64,000 nt of DNA from Pseudomonadota bacterium (GTDB taxonomy: Bacteria; Desulfobacterota; Binatia; Binatales; Binataceae): the NCBI GenBank assembly GCA_021324755.1, contig JAJPIL010000021.1:1-64000 (forward strand), given 5' to 3'. The notes beneath the pieces are model-generated. The model worked only from the letters and a program-made list of their open reading frames with translations, was not told where the DNA came from and did no database searches. Positions 20,424 through 55,749 of the stretch are shown in pieces (the stretch's first letter is position 1; each line of letters starts with the position of its first letter). The position numbers were made by a program, and so were the translations under genes.

Positions 20424-23400
20424 ATGGAAGTCAGTAGGCGCCAGTTTTTCAAGCTAAGCGGAGCTGCTTTGGCCAGTTCCAGTTTGACCGCCTTAGGCTT
20501 TTCTGCCACCGAAGCGAAGGCTGAGGTACGAGAGTTCAAGCTTGCCCGAACCACGGAAGTAAGGAATACGTGCCCGTACTGCGCCGTGGGTTGCGGAATA
20601 CTAATGTATAGTCTGGGGGACAAGGCCAAAAACGCTCGCGCTTCGATCGTCCACATCGAAGGTGACCCGGACCATCCGGTCAGCCGAGGAAGCCTTTGCC
20701 CGAAGGGCGCTGCGTTGTTGGATTTCGTCCACAGTCCAAGCCGCGTGCTTTATCCCGAATATCGCGCGCCGGGCGAGAGCGAATTCAAGCGCGTATCGTG
20801 GGATTGGGCGATCGAGCGAATCGCCCGTTTGATGAAAGAAGACCGCGACAAGAACTTCGTCACCCACAACGAGCACGGACAAGAGGTCAACCGCTGGGTA
20901 ACTATTGGGTTCCTCGCCGCCTCTGCTTCCACCAACGAGGCCGGCTTTTTGACCTGGAAGGTGATGCGAAGTCTCGGGATTGTGGGGTTCGACAACCAGG
21001 CGCGCGTCTGACACAGCCCGACGGTGGCCAGTTTGGCCCCATCGTTCGGTCGTGGCGCGATGACCAACAACTGGATCGACATCAAGAACGCCGACGTGAT
21101 CTTGGTGATGGGGGGCAACTCGGCGGAAGCCCATCCCGTCGGCTTCAAATGGGTCATCGAAGCCAAAGCACGCAACAAGGCAAAGCTTATCGTCGTCGAT
21201 CCGCGCTTCAACCGCACTGCTGCGGTAGCTGATCTTTACGTGCCGTTGCGATCGGGAACTGATATCGCCTTTTTAGGAGGCGTTATCAATTACCTACTGA
21301 CCCACGACGCCATCCATCACGAGTACGTCAAGGCGTACACCAACGCCTCCTTCATCGTAAAAGAGGGCTTCAGCTTCTCCGAAGGGCTTTTTAGCGGCTA
21401 CGACTCGGACAAACGCGAGTACGACCGTAGCACGTGGGAGTACGAGCTCGGACCCGACGGCTACGTTCTCACAGACGAAACGCTGCAACATCCGCGTTGC
21501 GTCTTCCAGCTGCTGAAGAAGCACTTCTCGCGTTACACGCCGGACGTCGTCTGTAACATCACCGGCACACCTAAAGAGAAATTCCTCAAAGCGTGCGAGA
21601 TAATCGCCTCCACAGCGCCGCCCAATCGAGCCATGACCAGCATGTATGCCCTTGGCTGGACCAACCATAGCGTCGGAACTCAAAACATCCGATGCATGGC
21701 GATCATCCAGCTCTTGCTGGGCAATATTGGAGTTTCTGGCGGAGGCCTCAACGCGCTTCGTGGACACTCCAACATTCAGGGTCTTACCGACTTAGGGCTA
21801 CTGAGCAACGGGATGCCGGGCTATCTTACGCTGCCCGCGGCCGACGAGCAGACGCTCGACCAATATCTGGCCAAGCGCACACTTAAACCGCTAAGACCCA
21901 ACCAGCTTAGCTACTGGTCCAACTATCCTAAGTTTTTCGTAAGCTTGATGAAGGCCGTCTACGGACCTGCCGCCACTAAAGAGAACGACTGGTGCTACCG
22001 ATGGTTGCCGAAGCTCGACCGGGTCGACCATGAATACGACATACTGCGGGTACAGGACTTGATGGCGCAGGGCAAGATGAACGGCTACATTTGCCAGGGC
22101 TTCAATCCGCTCCAAGCTTCGCCCAACAAGGCCAAAACGTTAGCCGGCTTGAGCAAGCTTAAGTACCTGGTCGTAATCGACCCGCTCGCAACCGAGACCT
22201 CGGCGTTTTTCGAGAATCATGGCGAATACAACCCGGTCAACCCGGCGGAAATACAGACCGAGGTGTTCCGGCTTCCGAGCATCTGCTTTGCCGAGGACGA
22301 AGGATCGCTGGTAAACAGTTCCCGCTGGCTCCAATGGCATTACAGGGGTCAGGACCCGCCAGGCGAGGCTCGGACGGATATTCAGATAATTGCGGCTTTG
22401 TTCTTGAAGATCCGCGAACTGTACCAGAAAGAAGGAGGCACATTCCCGGATCCCATCCTGAACCTCCATTGGCCGTACCTTGTACCGAGCGAACCGACAC
22501 CGGCTGAAATCGCGCGCGAACTTAACGGTTATGCGCTAGCTGATATCAAAGATCCGCAGGACCCGAACAAAATACTGGTCAAGGCAGGTAAACAGCTGGA
22601 CGGTTTTGCTCAACTTCGGGATGACGGGACCACGGCCTGCGGCTGTTGGATCTACTGCGGATGCTGGACCGAGAAGGGCAACCAGATGGCGCGGCGCGAC
22701 ACCTATGATCCAGCAAACCGTGGTCTGGTGCCCGGATGGGCTTGGTCTTGGCCTGCCAATCGGCGCATACAGTACAATCGCGCTTCATGCGACCCGGAAG
22801 GCAAGCCGTGGGACCCCAAGCGCAAAGTGATCTGGTGGGACGAAAAGAAAGGGATGTGGACTGGCATCGACGTCCCCGATTACGTCCCCACCATGCCGCC
22901 TAGCAAAGGAATGGGGCCATTTATCATGCTGCCGGAAGGGGTAGGGCGCCTGTTCTCGCGCGGGTACGTCAAGGACGGGCCTTTCCCTGAACATTACGAA
23001 CCCTTTGAGAGCCCGATCGGCACCAATCCGCTCCACCCGAAGGTGGTGACGAATCCAGTCGCCCGCCTCTTCAGCGAAGACCATAAAGAACTCGGCGACA
23101 GCTCCAAGTTTCCATATGTCGGCACGACTTACCGACTGACCGAGCTCTTCCATTACTGGAGCAAGCATTGCTTGATCAACGCTACTTTGCAGCCACAGCA
23201 GTTTGTCGAAATTTCCGAACGCCTGGCTAAAGAGAAAGGCATCTCCAACGGCGATGAGGTGATCGTAACCAGCGCTCGGGGGCGTATCCGAGCCGTCGCC
23301 GTGGTGACGAAGCGACTTAAGCCTCTTGTGGTCAACGGTAAGGTGATCGAGCACGTCGGAATCCCCATTCACTGGGGATTCAAGGGGCTGACGCACAAAG

Positions 23401-23495
23401 GATTCCCAGCAAACGTGCTTACACCCTGCGTCGGCGATGCCGTGACTCAGACGCCTGAAACCAAGGCGTTTCTGGTGAATATCGAACGAGCTTAG
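20424..23495 (+). CDS. fdnG: Formate dehydrogenase-N/O-type catalytic alpha subunit, selenoprotein (UGA = Sec196)
   Basis: The molybdopterin/selenocysteine catalytic subunit oxidising formate to CO2 in the periplasm. It starts with a Tat signal ('[20 protein letters not shown]'), then the [4Fe-4S] motif '[11 protein letters not shown]' and '[12 protein letters not shown]'. At 21009-21011 an in-frame TGA is codon 196, read as selenocysteine. The text before it is 'VGFDNQARV' and after it '[20 protein letters not shown]', exactly the FdnG active-site context. The same frame then runs to 23495, giving about 1023 residues against about 1015 in E. coli FdnG. A SECIS-like hairpin follows the UGA. 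Standard gene calling would split this into two false genes (20424-21011 and 21024-23495). GGGGTGAG supports the start. First gene of fdnGHI. Confidence 0.96.
21009..21011 (+). other. Selenocysteine codon (UGA) in fdnG
   Basis: An in-frame TGA, codon 196 of fdnG, at the position of the catalytic Sec of FDH-N/O. Homology continues uninterrupted on both sides in one frame, so this is recoding and not a nonsense mutation. Confidence 0.95.
21019..21044 (+). promoter_or_regulatory. Bacterial SECIS-like hairpin in fdnG mRNA
   Basis: Starting seven bases after the UGA: CGA/UCG base stem (C-A mismatch), GG/CC pair, a bulged U at 21025, a GGCC/GGCC upper stem and the loop AGUUU (21030-21034) that contains the G-U pair SelB recognises. 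The bulged U below a short stem with GU in the loop is the defining architecture of bacterial SECIS elements and closely resembles the E. coli fdnG element. Confidence 0.85.
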
Positions 23496-23509: not shown

Positions 23510-24391
23510 ATGGCACTGCAATCGCTCGACATTGTGGCGCGCTCGGCGACGACTCTGCCCCCGCCCCAGATACGTCATACCGAAGAGGTCGCCAAGCTCA
23601 TCGATATCTCAAAGTGCATCGGATGCAAGGCTTGCCAGGCGGCCTGCATGGAGTGGAACGACCTGCGCGACGAGGTCGGAATCAATTTCGGCTCGTATCA
23701 GAATCCAGCCGATCTGACACCCGCGTCGTGGACCTTGATGCGCTTCTACGAGGTCGAGCCCGACGGCGAGCTCGAGTGGCTGATTCGCAAGGACGGATGC
23801 ATGCACTGCGCTGAGCCGGGATGCCTCGAGGCATGCCCGTCGCCGGGCGCCATTATCAAATACTCCAACGGAATCGTAGACTTCGTCGAAGAGAATTGCA
23901 TCGGATGCGGCTACTGCGTAACTGGATGCCCGTTCAATATTCCGCGCATCTCGAAAAAGGACAACAAGGCCTACAAGTGCACTTTGTGCTCCGATCGCGT
24001 AGCCGTAGGACTTGAACCCGCGTGCGTCAAAGCCTGTCCGACGCAGGCCCTGGTGTTCGGCACCAAGCAAGCGATGCTCGAGCATGCGGCAGAGCGCGTG
24101 GCTGAGCTGAAAGAAAGGGGTTTCAAAAACGCGGGGGTTTACGACCCTCCAGGCGTGGGCGGCACCCACGTCATCTACGTACTTCAGCACGCCGACAAAC
24201 CGGAACTCTACGAGTTGCCCAAGGATCCGAAAATCAGCCCCTTGGTCCGCCTGTGGAAGGGGATCACAAAGCCGTTAGCGCTGGCAGCTTTCGGTCTGTC
24301 GATAGTGATAGGATTTTTGCATTACGTGTCCGTCGGCCCCAACGAGGTAAAAGAAGAGAAGAAAGACACAGATTCAAATCCGCCGGCGTGA
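23510..24391 (+). CDS. fdnH: Formate dehydrogenase iron-sulfur beta subunit
   Basis: A 293-residue electron-transfer subunit with four [4Fe-4S] clusters. Cys motifs in order: '[14 protein letters not shown]' (about residue 37), '[19 protein letters not shown]', '[18 protein letters not shown]' and 'CTLCSDR...[11 protein letters not shown]'. One C-terminal membrane helix ('[20 protein letters not shown]') anchors it and places its final clusters next to the heme subunit. It begins 14 bases after fdnG with a GGGAGGGGG Shine-Dalgarno. Electrons flow from the FdnG active site through this chain to FdnI. Length and topology match E. coli FdnH/FdoH. Confidence 0.95.
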
Positions 24392-24498: not shown

Positions 24499-25131
24499 AT
24501 GAGCCGAGAAGAAGACACGATTGTTCGGTACACCGCGTCCGAACGGATTAATCATTGGATCGTGGCGATCGCGTTTTTTGCGGCGGGCTTGAGCGGTCTT
24601 GCTTTGTTCCACCCGAGCCTTTTCTTCCTCGCCAATCTTTTTGGCGGCGGACCGTGGACTAGGATCATTCATCCTTGGGCCGGTGTGGTGATGGTGATCG
24701 CGTTTTTCCTGATGGCCCGATGGATGTGGGCCGACAACTACCTTACAGCCGAGGATTGGCAGTGGCTCAAGCAGATCTGGGACGTCGTTGGCAATAAAGA
24801 GGAACGGCTTCCGCCCGCCGGCCGGTACAATGCCGGGCAAAAAATGTTGTTCTGGACGCTGGTCGCAAGCCTGGTGCTTTTGTTGGTAAGCGGCGCAATG
24901 ATCTGGTACGGATACTTCGCGCTGTATTTCCCGCTCTGGGCACGTCAGCTGGCTGCCGCGGTCCATGCTTTCGCTGCTTTCGTCCTTGTCTTGGCTATAA
25001 TCGTTCATATTTACGCCAGCATATGGGTGAAAGGCTCGATCCGGGCGATGGTTCGAGGGAAGGTGACACCGGCCTGGGCGCGACAACACCATCCCGAGTG
25101 GTATCGTGAGATAATGGAGGGCAAGGCGTAA
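24499..25131 (+). CDS. fdnI: Formate dehydrogenase cytochrome b gamma subunit
   Basis: A 210-residue four-helix membrane cytochrome b that passes electrons from formate to quinone. It starts 'VRYTASERINHWIVAIAFFA' as in FdnI/FdoI. Candidate heme-b ligands are His19, His58, His156 and His170, all in predicted helices. The 107-base gap after fdnH contains no terminator. A CGAGGG lies upstream of the ATG. The gamma subunit completes the FDH-N/O set, so the enzyme should be periplasm-facing and quinone-reducing. Confidence 0.94.
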   Translation: MSREEDTIVRYTASERINHWIVAIAFFAAGLSGLALFHPSLFFLANLFGGGPWTRIIHPWAGVVMVIAFFLMARWMWADNYLTAEDWQWLKQIWDVVGNKEERLPPAGRYNAGQKMLFWTLVASLVLLLVSGAMIWYGYFALYFPLWARQLAAAVHAFAAFVLVLAIIVHIYASIWVKGSIRAMVRGKVTPAWARQHHPEWYREIMEGKA

Positions 25132-25136
25132 GGCGC

Positions 25137-26060
25137 GTGAGCGGTAATTCTTACCCTTTGGAGCCGCAAGCGGTTGAGTTTGGAGCTCCACCTCCGTTCG
25201 TAAGGCTGCCCGACGTCTCAAACCTGTTCGCCAAGCGTAGCGAACGATTCGTCCAACTAGCGAGCACGCGCCAACCAGCAGGTTTTTTCCTTTTGCTTTC
25301 ACATCTCGCCAAGGCGCAGCATCGTGCGCTCGAGGAGCTAACGAGCTTGCCGATGCCGACAGCGTCGTATCTCGAGTATTGCCGCGAAAATCGACTTGCG
25401 CCTTTTGCCCCGGACATGTTCAAACCTGATACGGCTTGGCTCAGCGTGCTAAGCCGCGTCCTTGATGAGCTTTCTCGCCAGGATCTCACCGCGGATGCAA
25501 GCTCGGCCGTACGACGCGCACGCCAATTAGATCGCGCCGTGTTGCAGGCGTGGGGCAGTGCCATCGTACGTGGCATATACGAGCCAGTAGACCGCCAGGT
25601 AGCGCCTTTCATTTTCGGCGCGCTCCAGGTTTACTGGGCAAAATTGGCTTCACAGTTGGAAGCTGAGAAGATTTCTCGGCTCAATGCTCCGGGCGACTGC
25701 CCCGTGTGCGGCTGCCCGCCGGTGGCCGGCCGCATCCTAGCTGAAGGACAGTTTCGGGGTAATCGGTACCTGTGGTGCAACCTGTGCGCCACTCAATGGC
25801 ATTTGGTACGCATCAAGTGCAGCAACTGCGAATCGACCGAAGGCATCGCATACTACAGCATCGAGGGGCAAAACCAAGCGATTAAGGCCGAGACCTGCGA
25901 AAAGTGCAAGACGTACCTCAAATTAATGTACTTGGAGCAAGACGTAAATTTGGACCCAGTGGCAGACGACACTGGGAGCTATGCATTGGACCTGATGCTA
26001 TCCGAGCAAGGCTATCACCGGCGCACGCCGGTTTCCTTCCTATTTGCAGCACCCGAATAG
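25137..26060 (+). CDS. fdhE: Formate dehydrogenase accessory protein FdhE
   Basis: A 307-residue cytoplasmic rubredoxin-like maturation factor for Tat-exported respiratory formate dehydrogenases. The N-terminal half is helical. The C-terminal half has four Cys pairs binding iron: 'CPVCGCPPVAGRI', 'WCNLCATQWHLVRIKCSNCE' and 'AETCEKCKTYLKLMYLEQD', with the usual 'DLMLSEQGYHR' end. It starts at a GTG five bases after the fdnI stop, so it is in the fdn operon. Its role is to act on FdnG before export. Confidence 0.95.
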   Translation: MSGNSYPLEPQAVEFGAPPPFVRLPDVSNLFAKRSERFVQLASTRQPAGFFLLLSHLAKAQHRALEELTSLPMPTASYLEYCRENRLAPFAPDMFKPDTAWLSVLSRVLDELSRQDLTADASSAVRRARQLDRAVLQAWGSAIVRGIYEPVDRQVAPFIFGALQVYWAKLASQLEAEKISRLNAPGDCPVCGCPPVAGRILAEGQFRGNRYLWCNLCATQWHLVRIKCSNCESTEGIAYYSIEGQNQAIKAETCEKCKTYLKLMYLEQDVNLDPVADDTGSYALDLMLSEQGYHRRTPVSFLFAAPE

Positions 26061-26196: not shown

Positions 26197-27429
26197 CTAC
26201 AGTTCAGTCTTTACGTTGTCGTCGAGCAGATCGCGCAAAGTGACCGAGCTCAGCATCGATTGTTGAGCACAAGCCACTGCGCGAAGAACACTGTTTATCC
26301 TGCGATCCACGCATCCAGGCGCATCGCTTTCTTCGCCGCTAAGCTTTGCAATTTCCGCCAGTGTTATAGTGTTGGGATCGCACCTCAGGAAAAGCTCTCT
26401 GTCGAACCTGTCGGGCAGATTGCTTCCAGACTCGACCAGCAAATTGGCGCTTTTAAGTCGCGCGACGATGGGTTCCAGCTCATCTGGTGTCACGCCGAGC
26501 TCCCTTGCAGCGCTTCGAAGGGTAAAACTTCCGTCACGTACCCTCATCCGCTCGGCCGCTCGCACCATTACTAACAGCGCTGCTTCAAGGCCGAAGCATG
26601 TTCCTTTGGAACGGCGAGTGCGCAATCGTTCCAGACCGTCTGCGGTTTGCAGGGCGACCGTCAGCTCGCCGCCGTACAAAAGTATCAGCCAATTCATGTA
26701 TATCCATGTCATGAAGGTCGGTATAGCCGCTAGCGCACCATAGATCGCTCTATAGGTGCTGACTCCGTACTGGAGGTATATGAAGCCGCTTTGGGCGATT
26801 GCCAATATCAGCGTCGTGATGAGCGAACCGATTGCAGCGCCTTTCAGGTCAACCTTGGCATTTGGAAGAAAAGCGTAAAGAGAACCGATTGCGAACCATC
26901 CTATTACCCCAACCAAAACAGTTTCCAAAATCTGCCAATGGGGGACGAAGCGAAAAACTCGGTGGCTTAACGCGACTACCGTAGTTGCAACCAGTGGCAC
27001 GGCAAAAATGATACTGAGGTAGTCGAAAAATTTTCTATGGATACTTCGCTCTGAAGATGCCCCAAAAATGCAGTTGAAGGCCCGCTCAATCGTTCCCAGG
27101 GTAAGGATTGCGGTAATGATCAAGCCAACCCCGCCAACGGTGCCGAGCGTCCTTTTGTCGATATTACTGACGAAGCTTAAGATTCTGTCGGTGACCTCAG
27201 GTGAACCGGCTGCGATATAGCGCTCAATCAGCGGCCGCAGCGTCGTTATGCCGCCGAAACCCACTACCGCAGATAGAGCGAGCGACATAATGGGGACTAT
27301 CGAAAGAAACGTGGTGTAGGTCAGCGCCGAGGCCCACAGAAAACCGTTGTGCGCGTTGAAGGCTTCAGCCGCAAGATAAAAGACACGCAACAACCGAAAG
27401 GTTCGAATTTTGGCCAAGAGCTCGTTCAT
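26197..27429 (-). CDS. YihY/BrkB-family membrane protein
   Basis: A 410-residue integral membrane protein of the YihY (once misnamed RNase BN) family with about six helices. The signature 'LWASALTYTTFLSIVPIMSL' lies near residue 32, followed by 'ALAAIPTFMTWIYMNWLILL' and 'LYGGELTVAL'. After about residue 285 comes a cytoplasmic winged-helix-like domain ('FTLRSAARELGVTPDELEPI'), seen in some longer family members. The function is not established. It lies on the opposite strand between fdhE and fdhD, breaking an otherwise same-strand formate dehydrogenase set. Confidence 0.9.
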   Translation of the reverse strand: MNELLAKIRTFRLLRVFYLAAEAFNAHNGFLWASALTYTTFLSIVPIMSLALSAVVGFGGITTLRPLIERYIAAGSPEVTDRILSFVSNIDKRTLGTVGGVGLIITAILTLGTIERAFNCIFGASSERSIHRKFFDYLSIIFAVPLVATTVVALSHRVFRFVPHWQILETVLVGVIGWFAIGSLYAFLPNAKVDLKGAAIGSLITTLILAIAQSGFIYLQYGVSTYRAIYGALAAIPTFMTWIYMNWLILLYGGELTVALQTADGLERLRTRRSKGTCFGLEAALLVMVRAAERMRVRDGSFTLRSAARELGVTPDELEPIVARLKSANLLVESGSNLPDRFDRELFLRCDPNTITLAEIAKLSGEESDAPGCVDRRINSVLRAVACAQQSMLSSVTLRDLLDDNVKTEL

Positions 27430-27922
27430 ACGCCTAAAAATGCTTTTGCGAGGCCGTGAGCAAGCATCCGCCCATCTAACTGCGGTGCGAGCCTTCTTTT
27501 TATCCAGGGCGCGACGTTACAGAAGACGCGAGGCTAAAGACGTTACAGAAGACGCGAGGCTAAAAAGGATGCAAGCCTCGAGATGTACTCGTCTTGCCGT
27601 TCTCAGTTCGCTACCTTCTCTACCTTTTGCACGATTGAAAAGGTTTCTTTTCGCCGTGTCGTCGGTTGCACCACCACTTCCGTTGGTGCAGTCCTTACCG
27701 CGTGGTGGCACGCTCTCAAAATTAGGCAAGCCGCGATACAGCGTGTCAACGGTAAATGCGCAAAGCCTGGGCACCAAATTCTTGTTGCGACACGCCCCAA
27801 AGCGGGTAGCAGCCGAAGCTGTCGAACCTAGCGAAAAAGTCTTAATTTTTAAATTCGACTTTGCACCAGTCTGGTTTTGGCATGACCGTTTGCCTACGAT
27901 TACTTCAAGGATAGACACGCCA
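27430..27922. other. Divergent intergenic region yihY-fdhD
   Basis: The frame of fdhD is open upstream through most of this stretch, but the translation has no resemblance to FdhD and lacks a convincing start. A 26-base perfect tandem duplication lies at 27513-27564. The region probably carries promoters for both flanking genes; no certain elements were identified. Confidence 0.4.
27513..27564. repeat. 26-bp perfect tandem duplication
   Basis: Two adjacent identical 26-base copies (27513-27538 and 27539-27564), each beginning GACGTTACAGAAG and ending GCGAGGCTAAA. They lie between divergent promoters. Confidence 0.9.
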
Positions 27923-28861
27923 ATGGCAGAGGTTGGAGTAAAGAGTTGCGAGGCGCTTAAGCTTCGCGTAAGTCGGCTTCAAGACTCAGGCCCCGGCGAG
28001 GCGCTAAAACGCTCGGAAGCGGTCGCGAAATCCTTCGACGGATTAGCAATTGAACCGGTAGCGGAGCGCGTCGCGGTAGAGGAGCCATTGGAAATCAGGC
28101 TTGGCGGCCGACACTTCACGCTTACGATGCGCACGCCGGGCCACGACGAAGAACTTGCGGCCGGTTTTCTTCTAACCGAAGGTTTTATCAGCTCGGTTGA
28201 CGAGCTCGGCGAGATCAGAAGGGTTAGAAACAAGAGCGGTCAACCCGAGCCGAACGCGATCGATGTGGTATTGAGCGTCCGAGCCGACGATCTTCGCGAG
28301 CGCCTGAGGCGCAACTTCGTTATCTCGTCGAGCTGCGGTTTGTGCGGCAAAACCAGTATCGAATCGGTACGAACGAGAGTGACGCCTATCACGAGCACCT
28401 TCAAGCTGAACCCTGTGATCCTTGCCGAAATGCCGGTGCTGATGCGCGCAGGGCAACAGGTTTTTTCGGCAACCGGTGGACTTCACGCCGCCGCGCTATT
28501 TCAGCTTTCCGCAAGCGCAGCCGCGCAGGCGACCGACCAAGTCGTCCCAGTGATGGACCAAGCTAAACTTGAAGTTCTGCGTGAAGATATCGGGCGCCAC
28601 AACGCTGTGGACAAAGTTCTAGGGTACGCTTTAATGAGACGCCTGTTACCGCTTAAACAGGCAGCGCTTATGGTGAGCGGTCGACTGAGCTTTGAAATCG
28701 TACAGAAGGCGGCTACGGCGGGGATACCGATAGTTGCTGCTGTCTCCGCACCGTCCTCCCTGGCGGTCGAACTTGCTTTCGAAGTGGGGATGACCTTGAT
28801 CGGGTTTGTGCGCGAGAAAAGTTTCAACATTTATACCCACGCCGATCGAATCGCGATGTAA
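27923..28861 (+). CDS. fdhD: Formate dehydrogenase sulfurtransferase FdhD
   Basis: A 312-residue protein that transfers sulfur from a cysteine desulfurase to the molybdenum cofactor of formate dehydrogenases, essential for their activity. The catalytic Cys pair is Cys138/Cys141 in 'ISSSCGLCGKTS'. Other family blocks are 'EEPLEIRLGG', 'RTPGHDEELAAGFLLTEGFI', 'TGGLHAAALF', 'EDIGRHNAVDKVLG' and 'VSGRLSFEIVQKA'. The start ATG at 27923 has AAGGA upstream and leaves about 45 non-conserved residues before the domain. It probably serves both formate dehydrogenases of this window. Confidence 0.94.
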   Translation: MAEVGVKSCEALKLRVSRLQDSGPGEALKRSEAVAKSFDGLAIEPVAERVAVEEPLEIRLGGRHFTLTMRTPGHDEELAAGFLLTEGFISSVDELGEIRRVRNKSGQPEPNAIDVVLSVRADDLRERLRRNFVISSSCGLCGKTSIESVRTRVTPITSTFKLNPVILAEMPVLMRAGQQVFSATGGLHAAALFQLSASAAAQATDQVVPVMDQAKLEVLREDIGRHNAVDKVLGYALMRRLLPLKQAALMVSGRLSFEIVQKAATAGIPIVAAVSAPSSLAVELAFEVGMTLIGFVREKSFNIYTHADRIAM

Positions 28862-40364: not shown

Positions 40365-40874
40365 ATGTTCTGCCTCGCGGGATTTTTACGCCGCTATGTC
40401 GTAAGCGTAGTCGCAATTGGCTGCCTACCTTTGGTTGTCTTGGTTCTCTCCTCTGCGTTACACGCAGACATGCCAGGGCGCAACGCAACCACGAGCTCAA
40501 AAGCGGCACCATCCGTGGGATATTACACATTGGAGCAGGCACGGCACGGAGAGCAGCTTTATACTCAGTATTGCGCAAGTTGTCACGGCGCGAACCTTGA
40601 AGGACTATCAGGGCCGCCATTGGCGGGAGAAACCTTTAGACGTGATGTGGAGTTCAACAAGATTACTGCAGCACAGCTCTTTGGGTTTATCTCGACCCAG
40701 ATGCCGTATGATCGACCCGGTCGGCTAACGAAGCAGGAATACGAGCTAATTTTCAGCTACTTACTGTATCGGAACAATTTTCCTGCGGGCAACGTGCCGC
40801 TTTCGGCGGCCACAATCGACCGAGTAAATCTACTTCCTTTCCCGAACGATAGCGTCTCGCGGCCGGAGAAATAG
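40365..40874 (+). CDS. Periplasmic c-type cytochrome, partner of the PQQ dehydrogenase
   Basis: A 169-residue class I cytochrome c. After a basic start, the hydrophobic segment at residues 11-33 ending 'SSALHA' is a signal peptide or anchor. The heme site is C70-A-S-C73-H74, and Met113 in 'STQMPYDRPG' is the likely second axial ligand. 'SGPPLAGETF' and 'LTKQEYELIFSYLLYRNNFP' are common in cytochromes that pair with quinoprotein dehydrogenases. It lies 74 bases before the PQQ enzyme gene and probably takes its electrons, the role XoxG-type cytochromes play for XoxF. The partnership is inferred from position. Confidence 0.9.
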   Translation: MFCLAGFLRRYVVSVVAIGCLPLVVLVLSSALHADMPGRNATTSSKAAPSVGYYTLEQARHGEQLYTQYCASCHGANLEGLSGPPLAGETFRRDVEFNKITAAQLFGFISTQMPYDRPGRLTKQEYELIFSYLLYRNNFPAGNVPLSAATIDRVNLLPFPNDSVSRPEK

Positions 40875-40948
40875 AGTATAGATGGGCAAAGCTCAATCCG
40901 GCTTCAGCATCAAAAAGCGCTGAACCGGCATGAAAGGGGGATCGCAGA

Positions 40949-42628
40949 ATGAAACAGGTGAGAGGAAGGCTTTTAGGTTTGGTTTGCGGTGTGCTTGGGG
41001 GACTTGTCGTAACTTCGAGCCCGCCTCCGGTCTTAGCGCAGGGCGCGCAAGGCGGCGAACATTCAGTGGTCGTCAGTGGTCCTTTGCCCAACCCAGAACA
41101 AGTTCGCTTAACCGATCAGGCGCTCCTTGGAACGACAAACGCCGACGCCAACTGGGCGATTCACGGGGCAAACTACTCGAACCAGCGGTTTTCTTCGCTG
41201 CGCCAGATAAATGACTCGAACGTAGCCTCGCTTGTGCCTGTCGCAATCGTTCAGACTGGGATGACTGCAAGCTTCGAAACGACGCCACTGGTGATCAATG
41301 GCGTGATGTACCTGACGACGCCGATGGTGAACGGTCACATGAAGATAATGGCATTGAACGCGGCTACCGGCCAGCCTCTGTGGACCCACGACCATCGCAT
41401 CGGACCGGCAAAGTTTTGCTGCGGGCCGGTCAACCGAGGTGTAGCGGCTGCTTACGGCAAACTTTACTTCGGTACGCTTGACGCCAAGCTCGTCGCGATC
41501 GACGCCGCCGACGGGCACCTAGTATGGGAACAAACCGTCGCGGACCCGTCCGTTGGATATTCCGAAACGATGACACCGCAGGTTTACAAGGGAATGGTGA
41601 TCGTCGGAAGCTCGGGTGGTGAATGGCCGATCAGAGGCTTCGTTGCTGCGTACGACGCCGCCACAGGTCGCCAACTTTGGCGCTGGTATTCGACGAACCC
41701 TTCGTCATGGGCCGGCGAGTCATGGAAGTATGGCGGCGGCATGGTTTGGACCACTCCAGCTGTTGACCCTGAACAAGACCTGATCATATTTGCGGTGGGC
41801 AACCCGAACCCCGACATGGACGGCTCGCAACGCGAGGGCGACAATCTCTACACTGACTCGATCGTGGCTTTGCATGCCAAAACCGGCGATCTCGCGTGGT
41901 ACTACCAAGAAGTCCCGCACGACGTTTGGGACTATGACGCAACGAGCAATGTCGTGTTGTTCGACGTGAACAGAGATGGCACGAAAGTGCCAGCCGCAGG
42001 ACAAGCGGGGAAGACGGGCTTCTTCTATATCGTCGACCGGCGCAACGGGCAGTTAATCAGGAAGTCGCAGCCCTTTGTCATCCAAAACAAGAACATGTTT
42101 GCGCCACCTACCAAAACGGGAGTGAACATCCTTCCAGGTGCCAACGGTGGCAGCGAATGGTCGCCACCGGCCTATTCGCCGATCACCCGGATGGTCTATG
42201 TCCTGGGGATGGACCAACTCATGACTTTTACCACCCAGACCTCGCCCTACGTTCCAGGACACATGAAGCTAGGTAGCGCATTTTTTAACGTTCCTGGAGC
42301 AGGCAGCATCCAGGACGGCACTTTTACCGCGATCAATGTCGACGACGGTCGTATCGCCTGGCAGTATCATGCACCGCAACCGATGATAGGTGGAGCGCTC
42401 GCGACCGCCGGAAATCTGGTTTTTACAGGCGAAGGCAACGGCAGTTTCGATGCGTTCAACGCGCGAACCGGAAACCTCCTTTGGCGCTTTAATCTCGGCG
42501 CTGGAGTTAACGCTCCCCCGATAACCTACGCAGTCAACGGCAAGCAGTACGTGGCCGTCGCTGCCGGCGGGAGCTTCCAGCTAAGTTACCCCTACGGCGA
42601 CGTGGTTGCGATCTTCTCGCTTCGCTAG
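40949..42628 (+). CDS. PQQ-dependent alcohol dehydrogenase with lanthanide-type Asp
   Basis: A 559-residue eight-bladed propeller quinoprotein with a signal peptide (about residues 1-30, ending 'VLAQG'). The vicinal disulfide is Cys157-Cys158 ('FCCGPVNRG'). Metal/PQQ ligands appear as Glu225 ('GGEWPIRG') and Asn285 ('VGNPNPDMDG'). The catalytic base is Asp328 in 'VPHDVWDYDATSNVVLF', and Asp330 two residues on is the extra acidic residue typical of lanthanide-dependent (XoxF/ExaF/PedH) enzymes; calcium-type MxaF has Ala there. The neighbourhood points to methanol as substrate, but ethanol-type activity is possible. A big hairpin follows the stop. It should act in the periplasm and hand electrons to the cytochrome c upstream. 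Confidence 0.92.
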   Translation: MKQVRGRLLGLVCGVLGGLVVTSSPPPVLAQGAQGGEHSVVVSGPLPNPEQVRLTDQALLGTTNADANWAIHGANYSNQRFSSLRQINDSNVASLVPVAIVQTGMTASFETTPLVINGVMYLTTPMVNGHMKIMALNAATGQPLWTHDHRIGPAKFCCGPVNRGVAAAYGKLYFGTLDAKLVAIDAADGHLVWEQTVADPSVGYSETMTPQVYKGMVIVGSSGGEWPIRGFVAAYDAATGRQLWRWYSTNPSSWAGESWKYGGGMVWTTPAVDPEQDLIIFAVGNPNPDMDGSQREGDNLYTDSIVALHAKTGDLAWYYQEVPHDVWDYDATSNVVLFDVNRDGTKVPAAGQAGKTGFFYIVDRRNGQLIRKSQPFVIQNKNMFAPPTKTGVNILPGANGGSEWSPPAYSPITRMVYVLGMDQLMTFTTQTSPYVPGHMKLGSAFFNVPGAGSIQDGTFTAINVDDGRIAWQYHAPQPMIGGALATAGNLVFTGEGNGSFDAFNARTGNLLWRFNLGAGVNAPPITYAVNGKQYVAVAAGGSFQLSYPYGDVVAIFSLR

Positions 42629-42664
42629 GGCCTACTTAATCAACTCTGCGCCACTGGCAATTTG

Positions 42665-42717
42665 TCGCTGGCCTGGGCAACGATGCTCGACGCATTTAAC
42701 GTTGCTCAGGCCAGCGA
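42665..42717 (+). terminator. Long hairpin after the PQQ dehydrogenase gene
   Basis: TCGCTGGCCTGGGCAACG (42665-42682) pairs with CGTTGCTCAGGCCAGCGA (42700-42717): 18 pairs with one G-U wobble and a 17-base loop. A second arm, CCTACT (42631-42636) with AGTAGG (42721-42726), could enclose it. No U-tract follows, so it may act in 3'-end stability or Rho-dependent ending rather than intrinsic termination. Confidence 0.65.
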
Positions 42718-42758
42718 GGCAGTAGGTTCGCGTTTGCAATCAGCGAACCGCCGGCTAC

Positions 42759-42779
42759 GTTGTAAACCCTCGTTACAAC
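42759..42779 (+). repeat. Small hairpin upstream of fghA
   Basis: GTTGTAA (42759-42765) pairs with TTACAAC (42773-42779) across a 7-base loop, about 130 bases before the fghA start. It is a possible operator or RNA hairpin. Confidence 0.4.
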
Positions 42780-42907
42780 GGAGGCTTACAGAGCTACCGG
42801 ATGCTCATTTCACAATCGGCGCTTCGACCTGATATGGAGAGGTCGCTTTAGGTTTGTTAAAAAGTTCTAACAACGACTACCTCTACGGGAGTTGGTCTAG
42901 CTAGCTT

Positions 42908-43756
42908 ATGAGCCTTAAGGTCATCAGTGAGCATGCATGCTTTGACGGTGTTCAGGGCTTCTACGAGCACTTAAGTGAAAGCACGGGAACAACGATGCGT
43001 TTTGGGGTTTATCGACCACCCCAAGCCAAAGGAGGGGCGAAGCTTCCGCTCTTGACCTATCTAGCTGGGCTTACGTGCACGGAAGAGACATTCTTTATCA
43101 AGGGCGGAGCGCAACGCTTGGCAGCTGAGTACGGCTTGATCCTCGTTTCGCCCGACACAAGCCCAAGAGGAGCGGGAATCGCGGGAGAAGACGACGATTG
43201 GGATTTCGGCACCGGGGCCGGTTTTTACCTCGACGCCACGGCGACACCTTGGTCGAAAAACTACCGGATGTATAGCTACGTCACAGAAGAGCTGCCGAAA
43301 ATTATTGCGGATAACTTCAATGCTGACCTAAGTCGCCAAGGTATTTTCGGACACTCTATGGGCGGCCACGGAGCACTCACTATCGCACTAAAAAATCCCT
43401 CACGTTACCGCTCCGTTTCGGCATTTGCTCCCATCGCCGCGCCGATTCAATCACCGTGGGGTCAGAAAGCTTTCGCCGGATACCTCGGTGGAGACCTAAA
43501 ACAAGCACGACTTTACGACGCTACGGCTTTGCTGGAAGACGGCGCGCGATTCCCGGGAACTATATTGGTCGACCAGGGCGAGGCTGACCAATTCTTAAAG
43601 CAACAGTTGAAGCCTGAGCTGTTGGAAGCAGCATGCAAGAAGGCCGGTCAACCCCTTAATCTTCGGCGCCATCCAGGTTATGACCATAGCTACTATTTCG
43701 TGTCGACCTTCATGGCAGACCACGTAAAGCATCATGCCGAAGCCCTATGCAAATAG
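42908..43756 (+). CDS. fghA: S-formylglutathione hydrolase
   Basis: A 282-residue serine esterase of the esterase D family that hydrolyses S-formylglutathione to formate and glutathione. 'KLPLLTYLAGLTCTEETFFI' and 'LVSPDTSPRGAGIAGEDDDW' are diagnostic. The nucleophile is in 'GIFGHSMGGHGALTIAL', the Asp in 'VDQGEADQFL' and the His in 'RRHPGYDHSYYFVSTFMADH'. The length is normal. It lies between the PQQ alcohol dehydrogenase and the NAD formate dehydrogenase operon, with frmA 6 kb downstream on the same strand, completing the glutathione-linked formaldehyde route. Confidence 0.95.
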   Translation: MSLKVISEHACFDGVQGFYEHLSESTGTTMRFGVYRPPQAKGGAKLPLLTYLAGLTCTEETFFIKGGAQRLAAEYGLILVSPDTSPRGAGIAGEDDDWDFGTGAGFYLDATATPWSKNYRMYSYVTEELPKIIADNFNADLSRQGIFGHSMGGHGALTIALKNPSRYRSVSAFAPIAAPIQSPWGQKAFAGYLGGDLKQARLYDATALLEDGARFPGTILVDQGEADQFLKQQLKPELLEAACKKAGQPLNLRRHPGYDHSYYFVSTFMADHVKHHAEALCK

Positions 43757-43899
43757 CGCTACGAACTGTACAATGAAATCGCGTACTCGTGCTGCCTAGT
43801 GGTGCGCCACAAGGCGTAAAGAAGGCTCGAGCTTATGCTGTTGCTTCCGGTGCCTACTTAAGCCGTATTGACCGCCTGAAACTTTAGCTGAAGGTTCCG

Positions 43900-44076
43900 T
43901 TGAAAAAGAACTTCCGGTGCCGGGCCATCAAACCCTGGCTGCGGGACCACGGTCCAACATTCGTTGCCCTTATTACCGATGAGGTTGAAAAAGGGGGGCG
44001 GCAGAATCGACGAGGTAGGCTAGCTCAAGTGATGCGGACTCCTTTCGAACTAGCTCGAAAGGACTCAATCGAGTAA
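43900..44076 (+). CDS. Possible small protein before the NAD formate dehydrogenase operon
   Basis: A 58-codon frame from TTG (43900) with GAAGG six bases upstream. The translation starts 'MKKNFRCRAIKPWLRDHGPT' and has a plausible mixed composition ('FVALITDEVEKGG', 'MRTPFELARKDSIE'). I do not recognise it. The 24-base inverted repeat at 44040-44063 lies inside its 3' end. It stops 76 bases before fdsG. Confidence 0.3.
   Translation: MKKNFRCRAIKPWLRDHGPTFVALITDEVEKGGRQNRRGRLAQVMRTPFELARKDSIE
44040..44063. repeat. Inverted repeat upstream of the fds operon
   Basis: TCCTTTCGA (44040-44048) and TCGAAAGGA (44055-44063) are perfect 9-base arms around ACTAGC. The symmetry suits a dimeric regulator or a hairpin. 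It is about 90 bases before the GTG of fdsG. Confidence 0.55.
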
Positions 44077-44152
44077 GAATGGTTTTAGCCGCCAGTGCGT
44101 GGCCATAATGTCGCGTCCATGGCCGATTCCGGGGATATAGAGGTCTTAATCG

Positions 44153-44626
44153 GTGAGCTCAGGCTTGTGGGACAAAACAGCGGTGGCCGAGATTGTCGCC
44201 GAGCTTAAGGACAGGGAGGGCGCTCTGCTACCGATTCTGCATCGAATTCAAGATCGGTTCGGCTACATCCCGCCTGACAGTATTCCGATCATAGCGTCTG
44301 GACTAAACCTATCGCGCGCCGAAGTTCACGGCGTGGTGAGCTTTTACCGCGACTTTCGCAGCGAGCCCCCAGGCGTTCACGTAATTCGGATTTGTCGCGC
44401 TGAGTCTTGCCAGGCGATGGGAGCGGCAAGTTTAATCGACTACGTCAAACAAGAACTTAAGCTTGAATTCGGTGGGACCGATCGGGAAGGGTTTTTTACC
44501 TTGGAGCCGGTTTATTGCTTCGGCAATTGCGCGTGCTCGCCTGCGGTCATGGTAGACGAGCAAATTTACGGCCGGATGACTCCTGAACGGCTCGAAAGCC
44601 TTCTAAGAAAGCTGAGGAGCGCTTGA
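44153..44626 (+). CDS. fdsG: NAD-dependent formate dehydrogenase gamma subunit (NuoE-like)
   Basis: A 157-residue thioredoxin-like [2Fe-2S] protein related to NuoE and HoxE. The cluster Cys are 81, 86, 122 and 126 ('ICRAESCQAMG', 'YCFGNCACSP'). 'LLPILHRIQDRFGYIPPDSI' and 'VHGVVSFYRDFR' are typical. The start is GTG with GAGGT upstream. It overlaps fdsB by four bases, forming the diaphorase half with it. It carries electrons between the formate site in FdsA and the flavin in FdsB. Confidence 0.93.
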   Translation: MSSGLWDKTAVAEIVAELKDREGALLPILHRIQDRFGYIPPDSIPIIASGLNLSRAEVHGVVSFYRDFRSEPPGVHVIRICRAESCQAMGAASLIDYVKQELKLEFGGTDREGFFTLEPVYCFGNCACSPAVMVDEQIYGRMTPERLESLLRKLRSA

Positions 44627-46185
44627 CAGTGAGCCGCAAAATTTACGTCCCCGCCGATTCGAGCGCTGTCTCAGTGGGTGCCGACGCCGTAGCGCAAGCG
44701 ATTGAGCGGGCCTTAAAGCAAAGAGCGATTTCGGCGCAACTTGTTCGCAATGGATCGCGGGGGCTCTACTGGTTGGAACCAATGGTAGAGGTGGAAACGC
44801 CGCGCGGTCGGATCGCGTACGGGCCGGTAAGTCCAGAAAACGTCGAAGAACTTTTAGACGCTGGCATGCTCGAAGGCGCAGCACATCGCCTTTGCCTGGG
44901 GCCAGCCGAGGATATTCCTTACCTGCGAAACCAGGAGCGCCTGACCTTTTCCAGGGTGGGGCTGGTCGATCCGCTATCCTTGGAGGACTACGTCTCGCAT
45001 GGCGGCTACCGCGGGCTTCGGCGCGCGCTCGAAATGAGCGGCGCTGAGATAGTTGAGGAGGTCGTTGCTTCGGGCCTTAGAGGGCGCGGCGGCGCGGCTT
45101 TTCCGACAGGGATAAAGTGGAAGACAGCGCTCGAGACTCCAGCGGACCAAAAGTACGTCGTATGCAATGCCGATGAAGGTGACTCAGGAACGTTCGCCGA
45201 TCGGATGCTGATGGAGGGCGATCCGTTCGTTGTAATCGAAGGGATGACGATTGCGGCGGTTTGCGTTGGCGCAACTCGGGGCTACATCTACATCCGCTCC
45301 GAATACCCCCATTCCTATCGCACGATGGTGAAGGCGATCGCCTCCGCCTACCGCAACGGCTATCTCGGCGAAGACATCCTAGGCAGCGGCAAAACGTTCC
45401 ATCTGGAAGCGCGCCTTGGAGCGGGCGCATACATATGTGGGGAAGAGACGGCGTTACTCGAAAGCTTGGAAGGTAAGCGAGGGATGGTGCGGTTTAGGCC
45501 GCCCGTTCCCGCGGTCAAAGGCCTTTTTGGCAAGCCTACGGTCTTGAACAACGTGGTAACGCTGGCCTCAGTACCGATAATCCTTGAAAAAGGTGGCAAG
45601 TTCTATCACGCTTACGGCACCGGGCGGTCGCGGGGAACTCTTACGATCCAGCTTGCGGGTAACGTCAAGCGCCCTGGGCTTATCGAAAAAGCGTTTGGAG
45701 TTACGCTCAGGGAGATTATCTACGAGTACGGCGGAGGAACAGCCAGTGGGCGGCCTGTGCGAGCGGTCCAACTCGGCGGCCCGCTGGGTGCCTACTTGCC
45801 CGAATCGATGCTCGACGTTCCGCTCGATTACGAGGCGGTCGCTTCGGTCGGAGGAATGATTGGCCATGGCGGTATCGTGGTGTTCGATGATACCGTCGAT
45901 ATGGCGCAAATGGCGCGCTATGCGATGGAGTTCTGCGCGGCAGAGTCATGCGGCAAATGTACGCCCTGCCGAATAGGCTCAACTCGCGGAGTGGAAGTGA
46001 TCGACCGAATAATAGCCGGCATCGAGCGTGAAGCAAACGTCGAGTTGCTCAGGGACCTGTGCGAAACATTAAAATATGGCTCGCTTTGTGCCCTTGGGGG
46101 GCTTACGCCGATGCCCGTGTTGAGCGCCCTGAAACACTTTCCGCAAGATTTTGGGCTTTTGCCGCAGGAGGCGGAATTGAGGTAG
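44623..46185 (+). CDS. fdsB: NAD-dependent formate dehydrogenase beta subunit (NuoF-like diaphorase)
   Basis: A 520-residue FMN/NAD-binding subunit. An N-terminal thioredoxin-like region precedes the NuoF core, with 'SGLRGRGGAAFPTGIKW', the FMN site 'YVVCNADEGDSGTFADRMLM', 'GAGAYICGEETALLESLEGK' for NADH binding and the [4Fe-4S] motif 'ESCGKCTPCRIGSTRG' near residue 445. The start is either a TTG overlapping the fdsG stop or GTG at 44629. It reduces NAD with electrons from formate. The 114 bases after it contain a tandem 19-base repeat. Confidence 0.95.
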   Translation: MTVSRKIYVPADSSAVSVGADAVAQAIERALKQRAISAQLVRNGSRGLYWLEPMVEVETPRGRIAYGPVSPENVEELLDAGMLEGAAHRLCLGPAEDIPYLRNQERLTFSRVGLVDPLSLEDYVSHGGYRGLRRALEMSGAEIVEEVVASGLRGRGGAAFPTGIKWKTALETPADQKYVVCNADEGDSGTFADRMLMEGDPFVVIEGMTIAAVCVGATRGYIYIRSEYPHSYRTMVKAIASAYRNGYLGEDILGSGKTFHLEARLGAGAYICGEETALLESLEGKRGMVRFRPPVPAVKGLFGKPTVLNNVVTLASVPIILEKGGKFYHAYGTGRSRGTLTIQLAGNVKRPGLIEKAFGVTLREIIYEYGGGTASGRPVRAVQLGGPLGAYLPESMLDVPLDYEAVASVGGMIGHGGIVVFDDTVDMAQMARYAMEFCAAESCGKCTPCRIGSTRGVEVIDRIIAGIEREANVELLRDLCETLKYGSLCALGGLTPMPVLSALKHFPQDFGLLPQEAELR

Positions 46186-46203
46186 TGCCACAGGGTGCGA
46201 GTT

Positions 46204-46241
46204 CGCGCAAAAGCTTGTTGAACGCGCAAAAGCTTGTTGAA
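46204..46241. repeat. 19-bp perfect tandem repeat between fdsB and fdsA
   Basis: Two adjacent copies of CGCGCAAAAGCTTGTTGAA (46204-46222, 46223-46241), each containing the palindrome AAGCTT. They sit in the only sizeable gap within the fds operon. Confidence 0.92.
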
Positions 46242-46299
46242 ACGGATAGAAGTGACGCCAAAATTCCTTGCTCAGAGACGATAAAGTGGGGGTTTCGCG

Positions 46300-49122
46300 A
46301 TGCTCTCGATAACAGATACAGACTACGGTACGCCAGCCCGGCGATCGGAAAAACTGGTTTCCTTGGAGATTGACGGAAGGGCGGTGACTGTACCGGCCGG
46401 GACCTCCGTGCTGAGGGCCGCGGCACTTGTGGGGATCAAAATTCCCAAGCTGTGCGCTACCGACTCGCTCGAGCCGTTTGGCTCCTGCCGTTTGTGCCTG
46501 GTGGAAATCAAGGGCAGAGCTGGATATCCGGCTTCGTGTACTACGCCGGTGGAGGATGGGATGCAGGTGCGCACGCAGAGCGACAAGCTTCAGATGCTGC
46601 GGCGCAACGTGATGGAGCTTTACATATCGGACCATCCGCTCGATTGCTTGACCTGTCCCGCCAACGGGAACTGCGAACTTCAGGAGATGGCCGGCGTCGT
46701 CGGACTGCGCCACGTTCGCTATGGCTACGATGGCAAGAACCATCTTTCCGCACCTAAGGACGAATCGAATCCCTACTTTGTGTTCGACCCATCCAAATGT
46801 ATCGTTTGCTCGCGGTGCGTTCGAGCATGCGAGGAGATTCAAGGCACCTTCGCGTTGACTATCCACGGGCGCGGGTTTGATTCGGTGATCTCGCCGGGCC
46901 AGCGTGAAGCCTTCATCGATTCCGAGTGTGTCTCGTGCGGAGCATGCGTGCAGGCCTGTCCCACGGCAACCTTGATCGAGAAGTCGGTGATCGAAAAAGG
47001 CCAAGCTGAACACACCGTTGTCACAACTTGCGGCTACTGCGGTGTGGGGTGTTCTTTCAAGGCCGAGATGAAAGGCAACGAGGTCGTGCGGATGGTGCCC
47101 AATAAGGACGGTTATCCCAATCTGGGCCATTCGTGCGTAAAGGGGCGATTTGCCTGGGGCTATGCGACCCATCCGGACCGGGTTACCAAGCCGCTGATTC
47201 GCGAGCGCATCACCGATCCCTGGCGTGAAGTTTCGTGGGACGAAGCGATACAGTACGCGGCCACGGGTTTGAAGCGCGTCCAGCAGAAATACGGCAGGTA
47301 TTCGATTGGGGCGATCGCTTCTTCGCGCTGCACCAACGAAGAAGCCTATCTCGTGCAAAAGCTCGTACGGGCTGTCTTCGGCAATAACAACGTCGATACG
47401 TGCGCTCGAGTCTGCCATTCGCCGACAGGATACGGTCTTAAAACCGCCTTTGGAACGTCTGCCGGAACGCAGGACTTCGCGTCGGTCCTTAAGGCCGACG
47501 TCATCATGGTAATAGGCTGCAACCCAACCGACGGCCATCCAGTCTTCGCCTCGATGCTCAAGCGGCGCGTCAGAGAGGGTGCAAAGCTGATCGTGGTAGA
47601 CCCTCGTAAGATCGATCTAGTCAAAACGCCCCACGTTGAGGCGACCTACCATCTTCAGCTCCGTCCGGGGACCAACGTAGCGCTGATCAACGCGATGGCT
47701 CATGTGGTCGTAACCGAGGGGTTGACCAACGACGCCTTTATAGCCGAACGCTGCGATCTACGCGATTACCAACTATGGAAGGAATTTATTTCCCGTCCCT
47801 ACAATTCGCCTGAAGCGGTCGAGCCAATTACCGGCGTACCTGCTCATCTGATTCGAAGCGCAGCCCGTCTTTACGCATGCGGCGGAAACGCGACTATTTA
47901 TTATGGGCTAGGCGTCACCGAGCATAGTCAGGGAAGCACCATGGTGCTGGGGATGGCAAACCTGGCAATGGCCACTGGCAACATCGGACGCGAAGGAGTA
48001 GGAGTGAACCCGCTCCGCGGCCAGAACAATGTTCAAGGCTCATGTGACGTCGGCTCGTTCCCGCACGAACTTACCGGCTATCGCCACATATCGGACCCTC
48101 AAGTAAGAGCGGCTTTCGAACGGGAATGGGGCGTGAAGCTGGACCCCGAACCCGGGCTTAGGATTCCGAATATGTTCGATGCCGCGCTCGACGGAAGTTT
48201 CAAAGGCTTGTACGTTCAGGGCGAAGATATTGCTCAGTCCGATCCCAACACCCAGCATGTCACGGCGGCCCTGCGCGCGATGGAGTTCGTGATCGTGCAG
48301 GATCTGTTTTTGAACGAAACCGCAAAATACGCGCACGTGTTCTTGCCCGGTTCGTCGTTCTTGGAAAAGGACGGAACATTCACTAACTCCGAGCGCCGTA
48401 TCTCGAGGGTGCGCAAGGTGATGCCGCCGCTGGCCGGAAAACAGGATTGGGAGATCACGGTCGCGCTGGCGAATGCGCTCGATTTTCCGATGAAGTACTC
48501 TCACCCCTCTGAGATAATGGACGAAATTGCGCGTCTAACGCCGACTTTCGCTGGGGTGAGCTACGAAAAGCTCGATCGGTTGGGCAGTATCCAGTGGCCG
48601 TGCAATGACAAGGCTCCCGAGGGCACTCCCGTGATGCATGTCGGCCAGTTCGTCCGCGGCAAGGGCAAATTCACTATCACCGAATACGTGCCCACAAGCG
48701 AAAGGACCTCGCCTCGCTACCCGCTTATCCTGACCACAGGTCGAATCCTAACGCAGTACAACGTGGGGACTCAAACGCGAAGAACACCGAACGTTATTTG
48801 GCACGCAGAGGATCTCCTGGAGATTCATCCTCACGACGCCGAGCAGCGCGGAATCAGGGACGGCGACTGGGTGGAAGTTGTTAGCCGAGCCGGTAGTACG
48901 ACGCTAAGAGCCAAGATTACCGAACGGGTGCAACCAGGTGTAGTGTACACGACATTCCATCACCCAGAGTCGCGCGCCAACGTCGTGACTACCGAAAATT
49001 CCGACTGGGCGACGAATTGTCCGGAGTACAAGGTCACGGCAGTACAGGTTAGACTGCTTAAACCACTTGCCGAGCACCGCGAAGTCGGCCAGCCTTCGCT
49101 CGAATTGACAGCCGCCAAGTAG
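46300..49122 (+). CDS. fdsA: NAD-dependent formate dehydrogenase alpha subunit, Cys form
   Basis: A 940-residue molybdopterin catalytic subunit. The N-terminal [2Fe-2S] domain ('KLCATDSLEPFGSCRLCLVE') is followed by a His-Cys-type NuoG cluster region ('HPLDCLTCPANGNCELQ'), two ferredoxin clusters ('CIVCSRCVRACEE', 'CVSCGACVQACPT') and the FDH cluster 'TTCGYCGVGCSFKAE'. The active-site residue is Cys372 in 'TCARVCHSPTGYGLK', where FdnG has selenocysteine. The C-terminal domain shows 'PLILTTGRILTQYNVGTQTR'. It begins 114 bases after fdsB with a GGGGG Shine-Dalgarno. The soluble complex oxidises formate to CO2 with NAD. Confidence 0.95.
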   Translation: MLSITDTDYGTPARRSEKLVSLEIDGRAVTVPAGTSVLRAAALVGIKIPKLCATDSLEPFGSCRLCLVEIKGRAGYPASCTTPVEDGMQVRTQSDKLQMLRRNVMELYISDHPLDCLTCPANGNCELQEMAGVVGLRHVRYGYDGKNHLSAPKDESNPYFVFDPSKCIVCSRCVRACEEIQGTFALTIHGRGFDSVISPGQREAFIDSECVSCGACVQACPTATLIEKSVIEKGQAEHTVVTTCGYCGVGCSFKAEMKGNEVVRMVPNKDGYPNLGHSCVKGRFAWGYATHPDRVTKPLIRERITDPWREVSWDEAIQYAATGLKRVQQKYGRYSIGAIASSRCTNEEAYLVQKLVRAVFGNNNVDTCARVCHSPTGYGLKTAFGTSAGTQDFASVLKADVIMVIGCNPTDGHPVFASMLKRRVREGAKLIVVDPRKIDLVKTPHVEATYHLQLRPGTNVALINAMAHVVVTEGLTNDAFIAERCDLRDYQLWKEFISRPYNSPEAVEPITGVPAHLIRSAARLYACGGNATIYYGLGVTEHSQGSTMVLGMANLAMATGNIGREGVGVNPLRGQNNVQGSCDVGSFPHELTGYRHISDPQVRAAFEREWGVKLDPEPGLRIPNMFDAALDGSFKGLYVQGEDIAQSDPNTQHVTAALRAMEFVIVQDLFLNETAKYAHVFLPGSSFLEKDGTFTNSERRISRVRKVMPPLAGKQDWEITVALANALDFPMKYSHPSEIMDEIARLTPTFAGVSYEKLDRLGSIQWPCNDKAPEGTPVMHVGQFVRGKGKFTITEYVPTSERTSPRYPLILTTGRILTQYNVGTQTRRTPNVIWHAEDLLEIHPHDAEQRGIRDGDWVEVVSRAGSTTLRAKITERVQPGVVYTTFHHPESRANVVTTENSDWATNCPEYKVTAVQVRLLKPLAEHREVGQPSLELTAAK

Positions 49123-49153
49123 TCTAGGAACGGGAGCTGCGCATTGACGATTT

Positions 49154-49396
49154 ATGGACATCAGCCGTCTGGTGAGTATGGCCAACCAAATCGCCGCCTT
49201 TTTCGAAGCGTGGCCCGATAAGGACGAAGCGCGCAAAAACGTCGCGCAACATTTGCGTAACTTTTGGGAGCCACGCATGCGCAAGGAGATTATCGATTTC
49301 GTAAGGAACGGTGGCGACGGGGGGCTTAAGTCACTTGCCCGCGAAGCAGTCTTGCTTTTAGCAGCCGAAACCCAAAGCGCGAACAACGCAACCTAA
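49154..49396 (+). CDS. fdsD: NAD-dependent formate dehydrogenase delta subunit
   Basis: An 80-residue FdsD protein, needed for assembly or stability of the molybdenum NAD-linked formate dehydrogenase. The family pattern 'LVSMANQIAAFFEAWPDKDE' then 'VAQHLRNFWEPRMRKEIIDF' is complete. It follows fdsA by 31 bases and ends the operon. An 8-bp inverted repeat (CGATACCC at 49500-49507, GGGTATCG at 49528-49535) downstream may help end the transcript. Confidence 0.93.
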   Translation: MDISRLVSMANQIAAFFEAWPDKDEARKNVAQHLRNFWEPRMRKEIIDFVRNGGDGGLKSLAREAVLLLAAETQSANNAT

Positions 49397-49613
49397 TGGC
49401 TCACTAGACGGTCGTACCGTAACCGGTAGGCATCGCGACAATACAAGAAGGCACAAGATTGCTCTGGTAATGATATCCGAAGCGATGCCAAGGCCGAGGC
49501 GATACCCTTGTCGAATCTTTGCCACACGGGTATCGTTACTGTAGTTTGCAAGCTTGATCTTCGATGCTGCAGCTTGAGCACGGTCGTTCCAGCCGGGGGG
49601 AAGTGCGACTTAA

Positions 49614-50753
<1,140 letters not shown>

Positions 50754-53907: not shown

Positions 53908-54300
53908 CATGCTCTGATAAGTCCGACCGCGACGGCTAAAAAGGCGACTACGCGCATAAGGCCGCCCCAACCGCATGCTTAAAATTTTCTCAGCCGGTCC
54001 GTGAGCGATCACGATACGAAATAAGCAGCTAGCGATGAAGCGTAGAGCCGCACAAAGCGATGAGCTCGGTCATCTGTTTAAGAAGGTTCGCAAACCCATG
54101 GCACCGCCGAGGCGAACGCAGGCAAACCGTAAAAGGTACGACCGAGCGCGCAAAAAAGCCGACTGCGGCGCGAAAATCTAGTCGACTGATTTCACGATCG
54201 GCAATGTCGTGAACCGAGCAAGATCGTTCGCAAGCCACGGGCTGATAGGCAAACGGGTGCCCGTTAGTTGACATTTGCCGCTGCGTTCGCCTTTGAGGTA
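53908..54300. other. Intergenic region
   Basis: No gene or structured element recognised between the Fe-S oxidoreductase and the PEBP-VOC gene. Confidence 0.3.
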
Positions 54301-55656: not shown

Positions 55657-55749
55657 CGGAGGGGGGAAGGAGTCGAACCTTCCAGCGAACGTCAAGTCCG
55701 CCAAGCCGATTTTGAGGACCGGTGGGGCCACCGGGCCCCTTCCCCCTCC
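55657..55749 (-). tRNA. selC: tRNA-Sec (anticodon TCA)
   Basis: On the minus strand a 93-base tRNA: 8-bp acceptor stem GGAGGGGG/CCCCCTCC, a 6-bp D-stem GGGGCC/GGCCCC with a 4-base loop, anticodon stem CCGGT/ATCGG around loop CCTCAAA (anticodon TCA, reading UGA), a long variable arm (GGCGGA/TTCGCT) and T-arm GAAGG-TTCGACT-CCTTC. The 8+5 acceptor/T helix, long D-stem and big variable arm are unique to bacterial tRNA-Sec. The discriminator is G; CCA is not encoded (CCG follows). It serves the UGA in fdnG 34 kb away. No selA or selB adjoins. Confidence 0.95.

Follow-up and report, generated by a model that had tools for sequence, protein, structure and literature searches.

A TGA codon within the fdnG reading frame

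Does the TGA codon at positions 21009–21011 end a gene, or is it translated as selenocysteine (Sec)? In the window, i.e. the whole stretch of 64,000 nucleotides analysed here, the standard code splits the fdnG frame into two open reading frames (ORFs) in the same phase, 20424–21011 (195 aa) and 21024–23495 (823 aa). When TGA is read as Sec, the frame gives a single product of 1023 residues in which only codon 196 is recoded (U196), and it holds no further stop or frameshift. The features concerned are the following:

20424–23495, plus strand: fdnG, formate dehydrogenase-N alpha subunit
21009–21011, plus strand: in-frame TGA, predicted Sec codon 196 of fdnG
21006–21064, plus strand: SECIS element, Rfam RF01989 (SECIS_3), with an apical stem-loop at about 21026–21038

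Using phmmer, residues 1–1023 of the read-through translation were aligned with residues 1–1015 of E. coli FdnG (1KQF_A) at 1530.7 bits, and the alignment is ungapped up to residue 196. The residue of the solved chain that faces the TGA codon is X, i.e. Sec. The initial annotation had proposed that this TGA interrupts one continuous FdnG homologue and that Sec occupies the same codon, 196, as in E. coli FdnG; the read-through translation and its end-to-end alignment with 1KQF_A bear out both points, the former to the base. The translation also matches the NCBIfam model for formate dehydrogenase-N subunit alpha (TIGR01553) with 1560.9 bits versus a cut-off of 814.2, over model positions 2–1009 of 1009. 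Two motifs can be read from it: a twin-arginine export motif, formed by a 10-letter stretch at the N-terminus, and the 4Fe-4S motif CPYCAVGC...CPKG. This homology, together with the SECIS element, the tRNA-Sec, the presence of selA, selB and selD in the genome and the conservation of the TGA, all described below, supports the prediction that the gene at 20424–23495 encodes a selenocysteine formate dehydrogenase-N alpha subunit.

A SECIS element directly after the UGA codon

The SECIS_3 covariance model matches the region around the UGA with 77.3 bits (gathering score 63, E=1.7e-16), placing a SECIS hairpin directly after this codon. The same model also matches the loci of close relatives (L021/L098, L022/L035, L023 and L036). 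Changes in paired positions point the same way: the five pairs of the apical stem are kept in 40/40 distinct homologous contexts, and three of them have changed on both sides (G-C/A-T, G-C/C-G and C-G/A-T). Some pairs of the lower stem are poorly kept across the family in these 40 contexts. Taken by itself, the folding energy of the SECIS does not stand out (z −0.6 to −2.0), and a synonymous-constraint scan gave no clear excess for the SECIS codons (0.47 versus 0.45 for the gene). What is decisive for the SECIS is the covariance model together with the covariation, and not thermodynamic folding.

Selenocysteine machinery of the genome

The initial annotation had made the Sec reading depend on the presence of selA, selB and selD. 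Family searches of the same genome found all three products above the family cut-offs: contig C19 encodes SelA (601.5 bits), and contig C13 encodes SelB (400.4 bits) with SelD adjoining it (381.1 bits). The Sec reading thus stands. The remaining gene, which completes the set selA, selB, selC and selD, is located inside the window:

55658–55749, minus strand: selC, tRNA-Sec with anticodon TCA

A second match to RF01852 in the genome, on contig C15, was rejected as a tRNA-Sec, being a tRNA-Ser. Adjoining the tRNA-Sec gene, an ORF at 54268–55530 of the window joins YbhB/YbcL Raf-kinase-inhibitor-like and glyoxalase/VOC-like domains. The selD gene (L017, C13:62117–63043), with selB directly upstream, has itself one in-frame TGA, in the context RCKAAGUAGKL. 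Because of this codon, SelD is probably a second selenoprotein of the same genome. That this lineage makes selenoproteins is indicated by the Sec-containing FdnG.

Conservation of the TGA codon and selection on both sides

Of 88 homologous sequences, 87 have TGA at the Sec codon; the window itself is counted in this set, and a few genomes were fetched twice. The sole exception is TGC in a Methylobacillus metagenome-assembled genome (MAG; L037). Together with the SECIS_3 match, this conservation excludes chance as the source of the TGA. A sequencing or assembly error would mean that codon 196 is truly TGC or TGT and that the enzyme is a Cys formate dehydrogenase, as the TGC in L037 and the draft state of the assembly behind the window (29 contigs) might suggest. 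However, independent assemblies of relatives with 84–85% identity (L035 and L098) have TGA in the same place, the SECIS is intact and the Sec machinery is present, which makes such an error extremely improbable.

Compared with L098 (85% identical), the differences at the three codon positions are 25/12/107 before the TGA and 99/64/402 after it. Purifying selection therefore acts on both sides of the TGA. This hardly leaves room for a pseudogene, or for translation of the two ORFs as separate polypeptides, even though TGA is a true stop in the standard code and a GTG occurs in the downstream ORF 12 bases past the end of the TGA; moreover, the frame holds no other stop or frameshift, and a split would cut the protein at its active site. 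Since the TGA is kept so widely and purifying selection continues past it, both an error and a pseudogene are very unlikely, and we retain the Sec-containing FdnG.

Fifty-seven genomes were searched, comprising the genome itself and relatives. Eight of them match over the TIGR01553 cut-off, all in the same family and all with TGA, and these eight show two grades of similarity. In four family members (G009, G019, G023 and G029; loci L024–L027), an FdnG-like formate dehydrogenase is present that is more divergent (about 41–42% identical) and likewise has TGA at the Sec site. The Rfam SECIS_3 model gave no match at L024 and L026, the two of these divergent loci that were tested.

Operon and predicted function

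Downstream of fdnG, the following genes were identified:

23510–24391, plus strand: fdnH, iron-sulfur beta subunit, 293 aa (TIGR01582, 458.8 bits, cut-off 334.7)
24499–25131, plus strand: fdnI, cytochrome b gamma subunit, 210 aa (TIGR01583, 192.5 bits, cut-off 115.85)
25137–26060, plus strand: fdhE, formate dehydrogenase accessory protein (TIGR01562, 242.9 bits, cut-off 187.65)
within the ORF 27410–28861, plus strand: fdhD, accessory sulfurtransferase

The genes for the beta and gamma subunits thus adjoin fdnG, as expected for a formate dehydrogenase-N. Because the FdhD part covers only residues ~204–482 of its ORF, the true start of fdhD probably lies further downstream than the mechanical TTG at 27410.

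These genes are predicted, with near certainty, to encode a periplasmic, membrane-bound, quinone-reducing formate dehydrogenase of the FdnGHI/FdoGHI type, the catalytic subunit of which would contain Sec196 inserted under the direction of SelB and the SECIS. Nothing in the sequence was found to contradict this prediction. To the reading frame, homology, SECIS, selA/B/C/D genes and operon observed here, the known family adds the likely recoding event, metal, localisation and electron route. SelB with Sec-tRNA(Sec) would bind the SECIS hairpin just 3' of UGA codon 196, resulting in the insertion of selenocysteine. By analogy with the family, FdhD and FdhE would mature FdnG, which would be exported by Tat together with FdnH, and FdnI would be the membrane anchor. 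Sec196 is expected to be a metal ligand at the Mo/W-bis-MGD centre, with formate being oxidised in the periplasm. From formate, the electrons would then reach the quinone pool by way of Fe-S clusters and haem b.

At 44153–49122, the window also contains a cluster for a second formate dehydrogenase, of the NAD type (FdsG/FdsB/FdsA-like), the alpha subunit of which has a Cys in its active-site motif, ARVCHSPT. The organism therefore carries both Sec and Cys kinds of formate dehydrogenase. Genes for C1 oxidation are found at 40365–50753 of the window, encoding a cytochrome c, a PQQ-dependent alcohol dehydrogenase, an S-formylglutathione hydrolase and a class III alcohol dehydrogenase (glutathione-dependent formaldehyde dehydrogenase). 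From this gene content, a C1-oxidising lifestyle may reasonably be inferred. As the C1-oxidation genes, the Sec-FdnG operon and the NAD-type cluster included, are close together in the window, this uncultured lineage could couple methanol/formaldehyde oxidation to a respiratory formate dehydrogenase with Sec, an enzyme of patchy occurrence within its family; we consider this coupling possible rather than probable.

Annotation of a well-known selenoprotein

According to the initial annotation, standard tools would report two unrelated partial genes here and hide a selenoprotein. Plain ORF callers do split the gene as described above, but in RefSeq the E. coli homologue is annotated as one CDS across the TGA, which by its coordinates is at codon 196. 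In the gene tables of PLSDB, no feature is given under several homologues of the Sec formate dehydrogenase; as these tables are incomplete (a record of 1.3 Mb has 2 features), this gap was not counted as a sign of misannotation. Selenoprotein annotation has a known weakness: in one test set, it was correct for 195 of 298 selenoprotein genes (PMC12013277). Few bacterial selenoproteins are as widespread as Sec-containing FdhA (PMC1794560), and Rfam includes a model, RF01989, for the SECIS of the Sec formate dehydrogenase. To call the selenoprotein hidden is thus an overstatement, as the family is a widespread textbook case and Sec-aware annotation recovers the gene. The Sec-containing FdnG is real and complete, but ordinary, as no kind of bacterial selenoprotein is commoner or better known. 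It leaves views of selenocysteine biology and of formate dehydrogenases unchanged; rather, it shows once more why ORFs split by TGA in draft genomes need to be annotated with Sec in mind.

Comparison with known formate dehydrogenases

The alpha subunits of the Sec formate dehydrogenases 6SDR, 8CM4 and 8BQG, which we take to be Desulfovibrio FdhA, are homologous to FdnG of the window and align over the full length, but are more distant (~934–939 bits versus 1531 for E. coli FdnG). With E. coli FdnG/FdoG (PDB 1KQF), the protein shares ~63% identity, the full length, Sec at residue 196 and the SECIS sequence, and the subunit order G-H-I followed by fdhE is also the same. In contrast, fdhD is upstream and divergent of fdoGHI-fdhE in E. 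coli, whereas in the window it is downstream and on the same strand. A closer likeness is with the Sec-containing FdnG of two 'Deltaproteobacteria' MAGs, FK3.bin127 and FK3.bin99, which are 84–85% identical and have kept both the TGA and SECIS_3. Their difference from FdnG of the window corresponds to ordinary divergence between orthologs.
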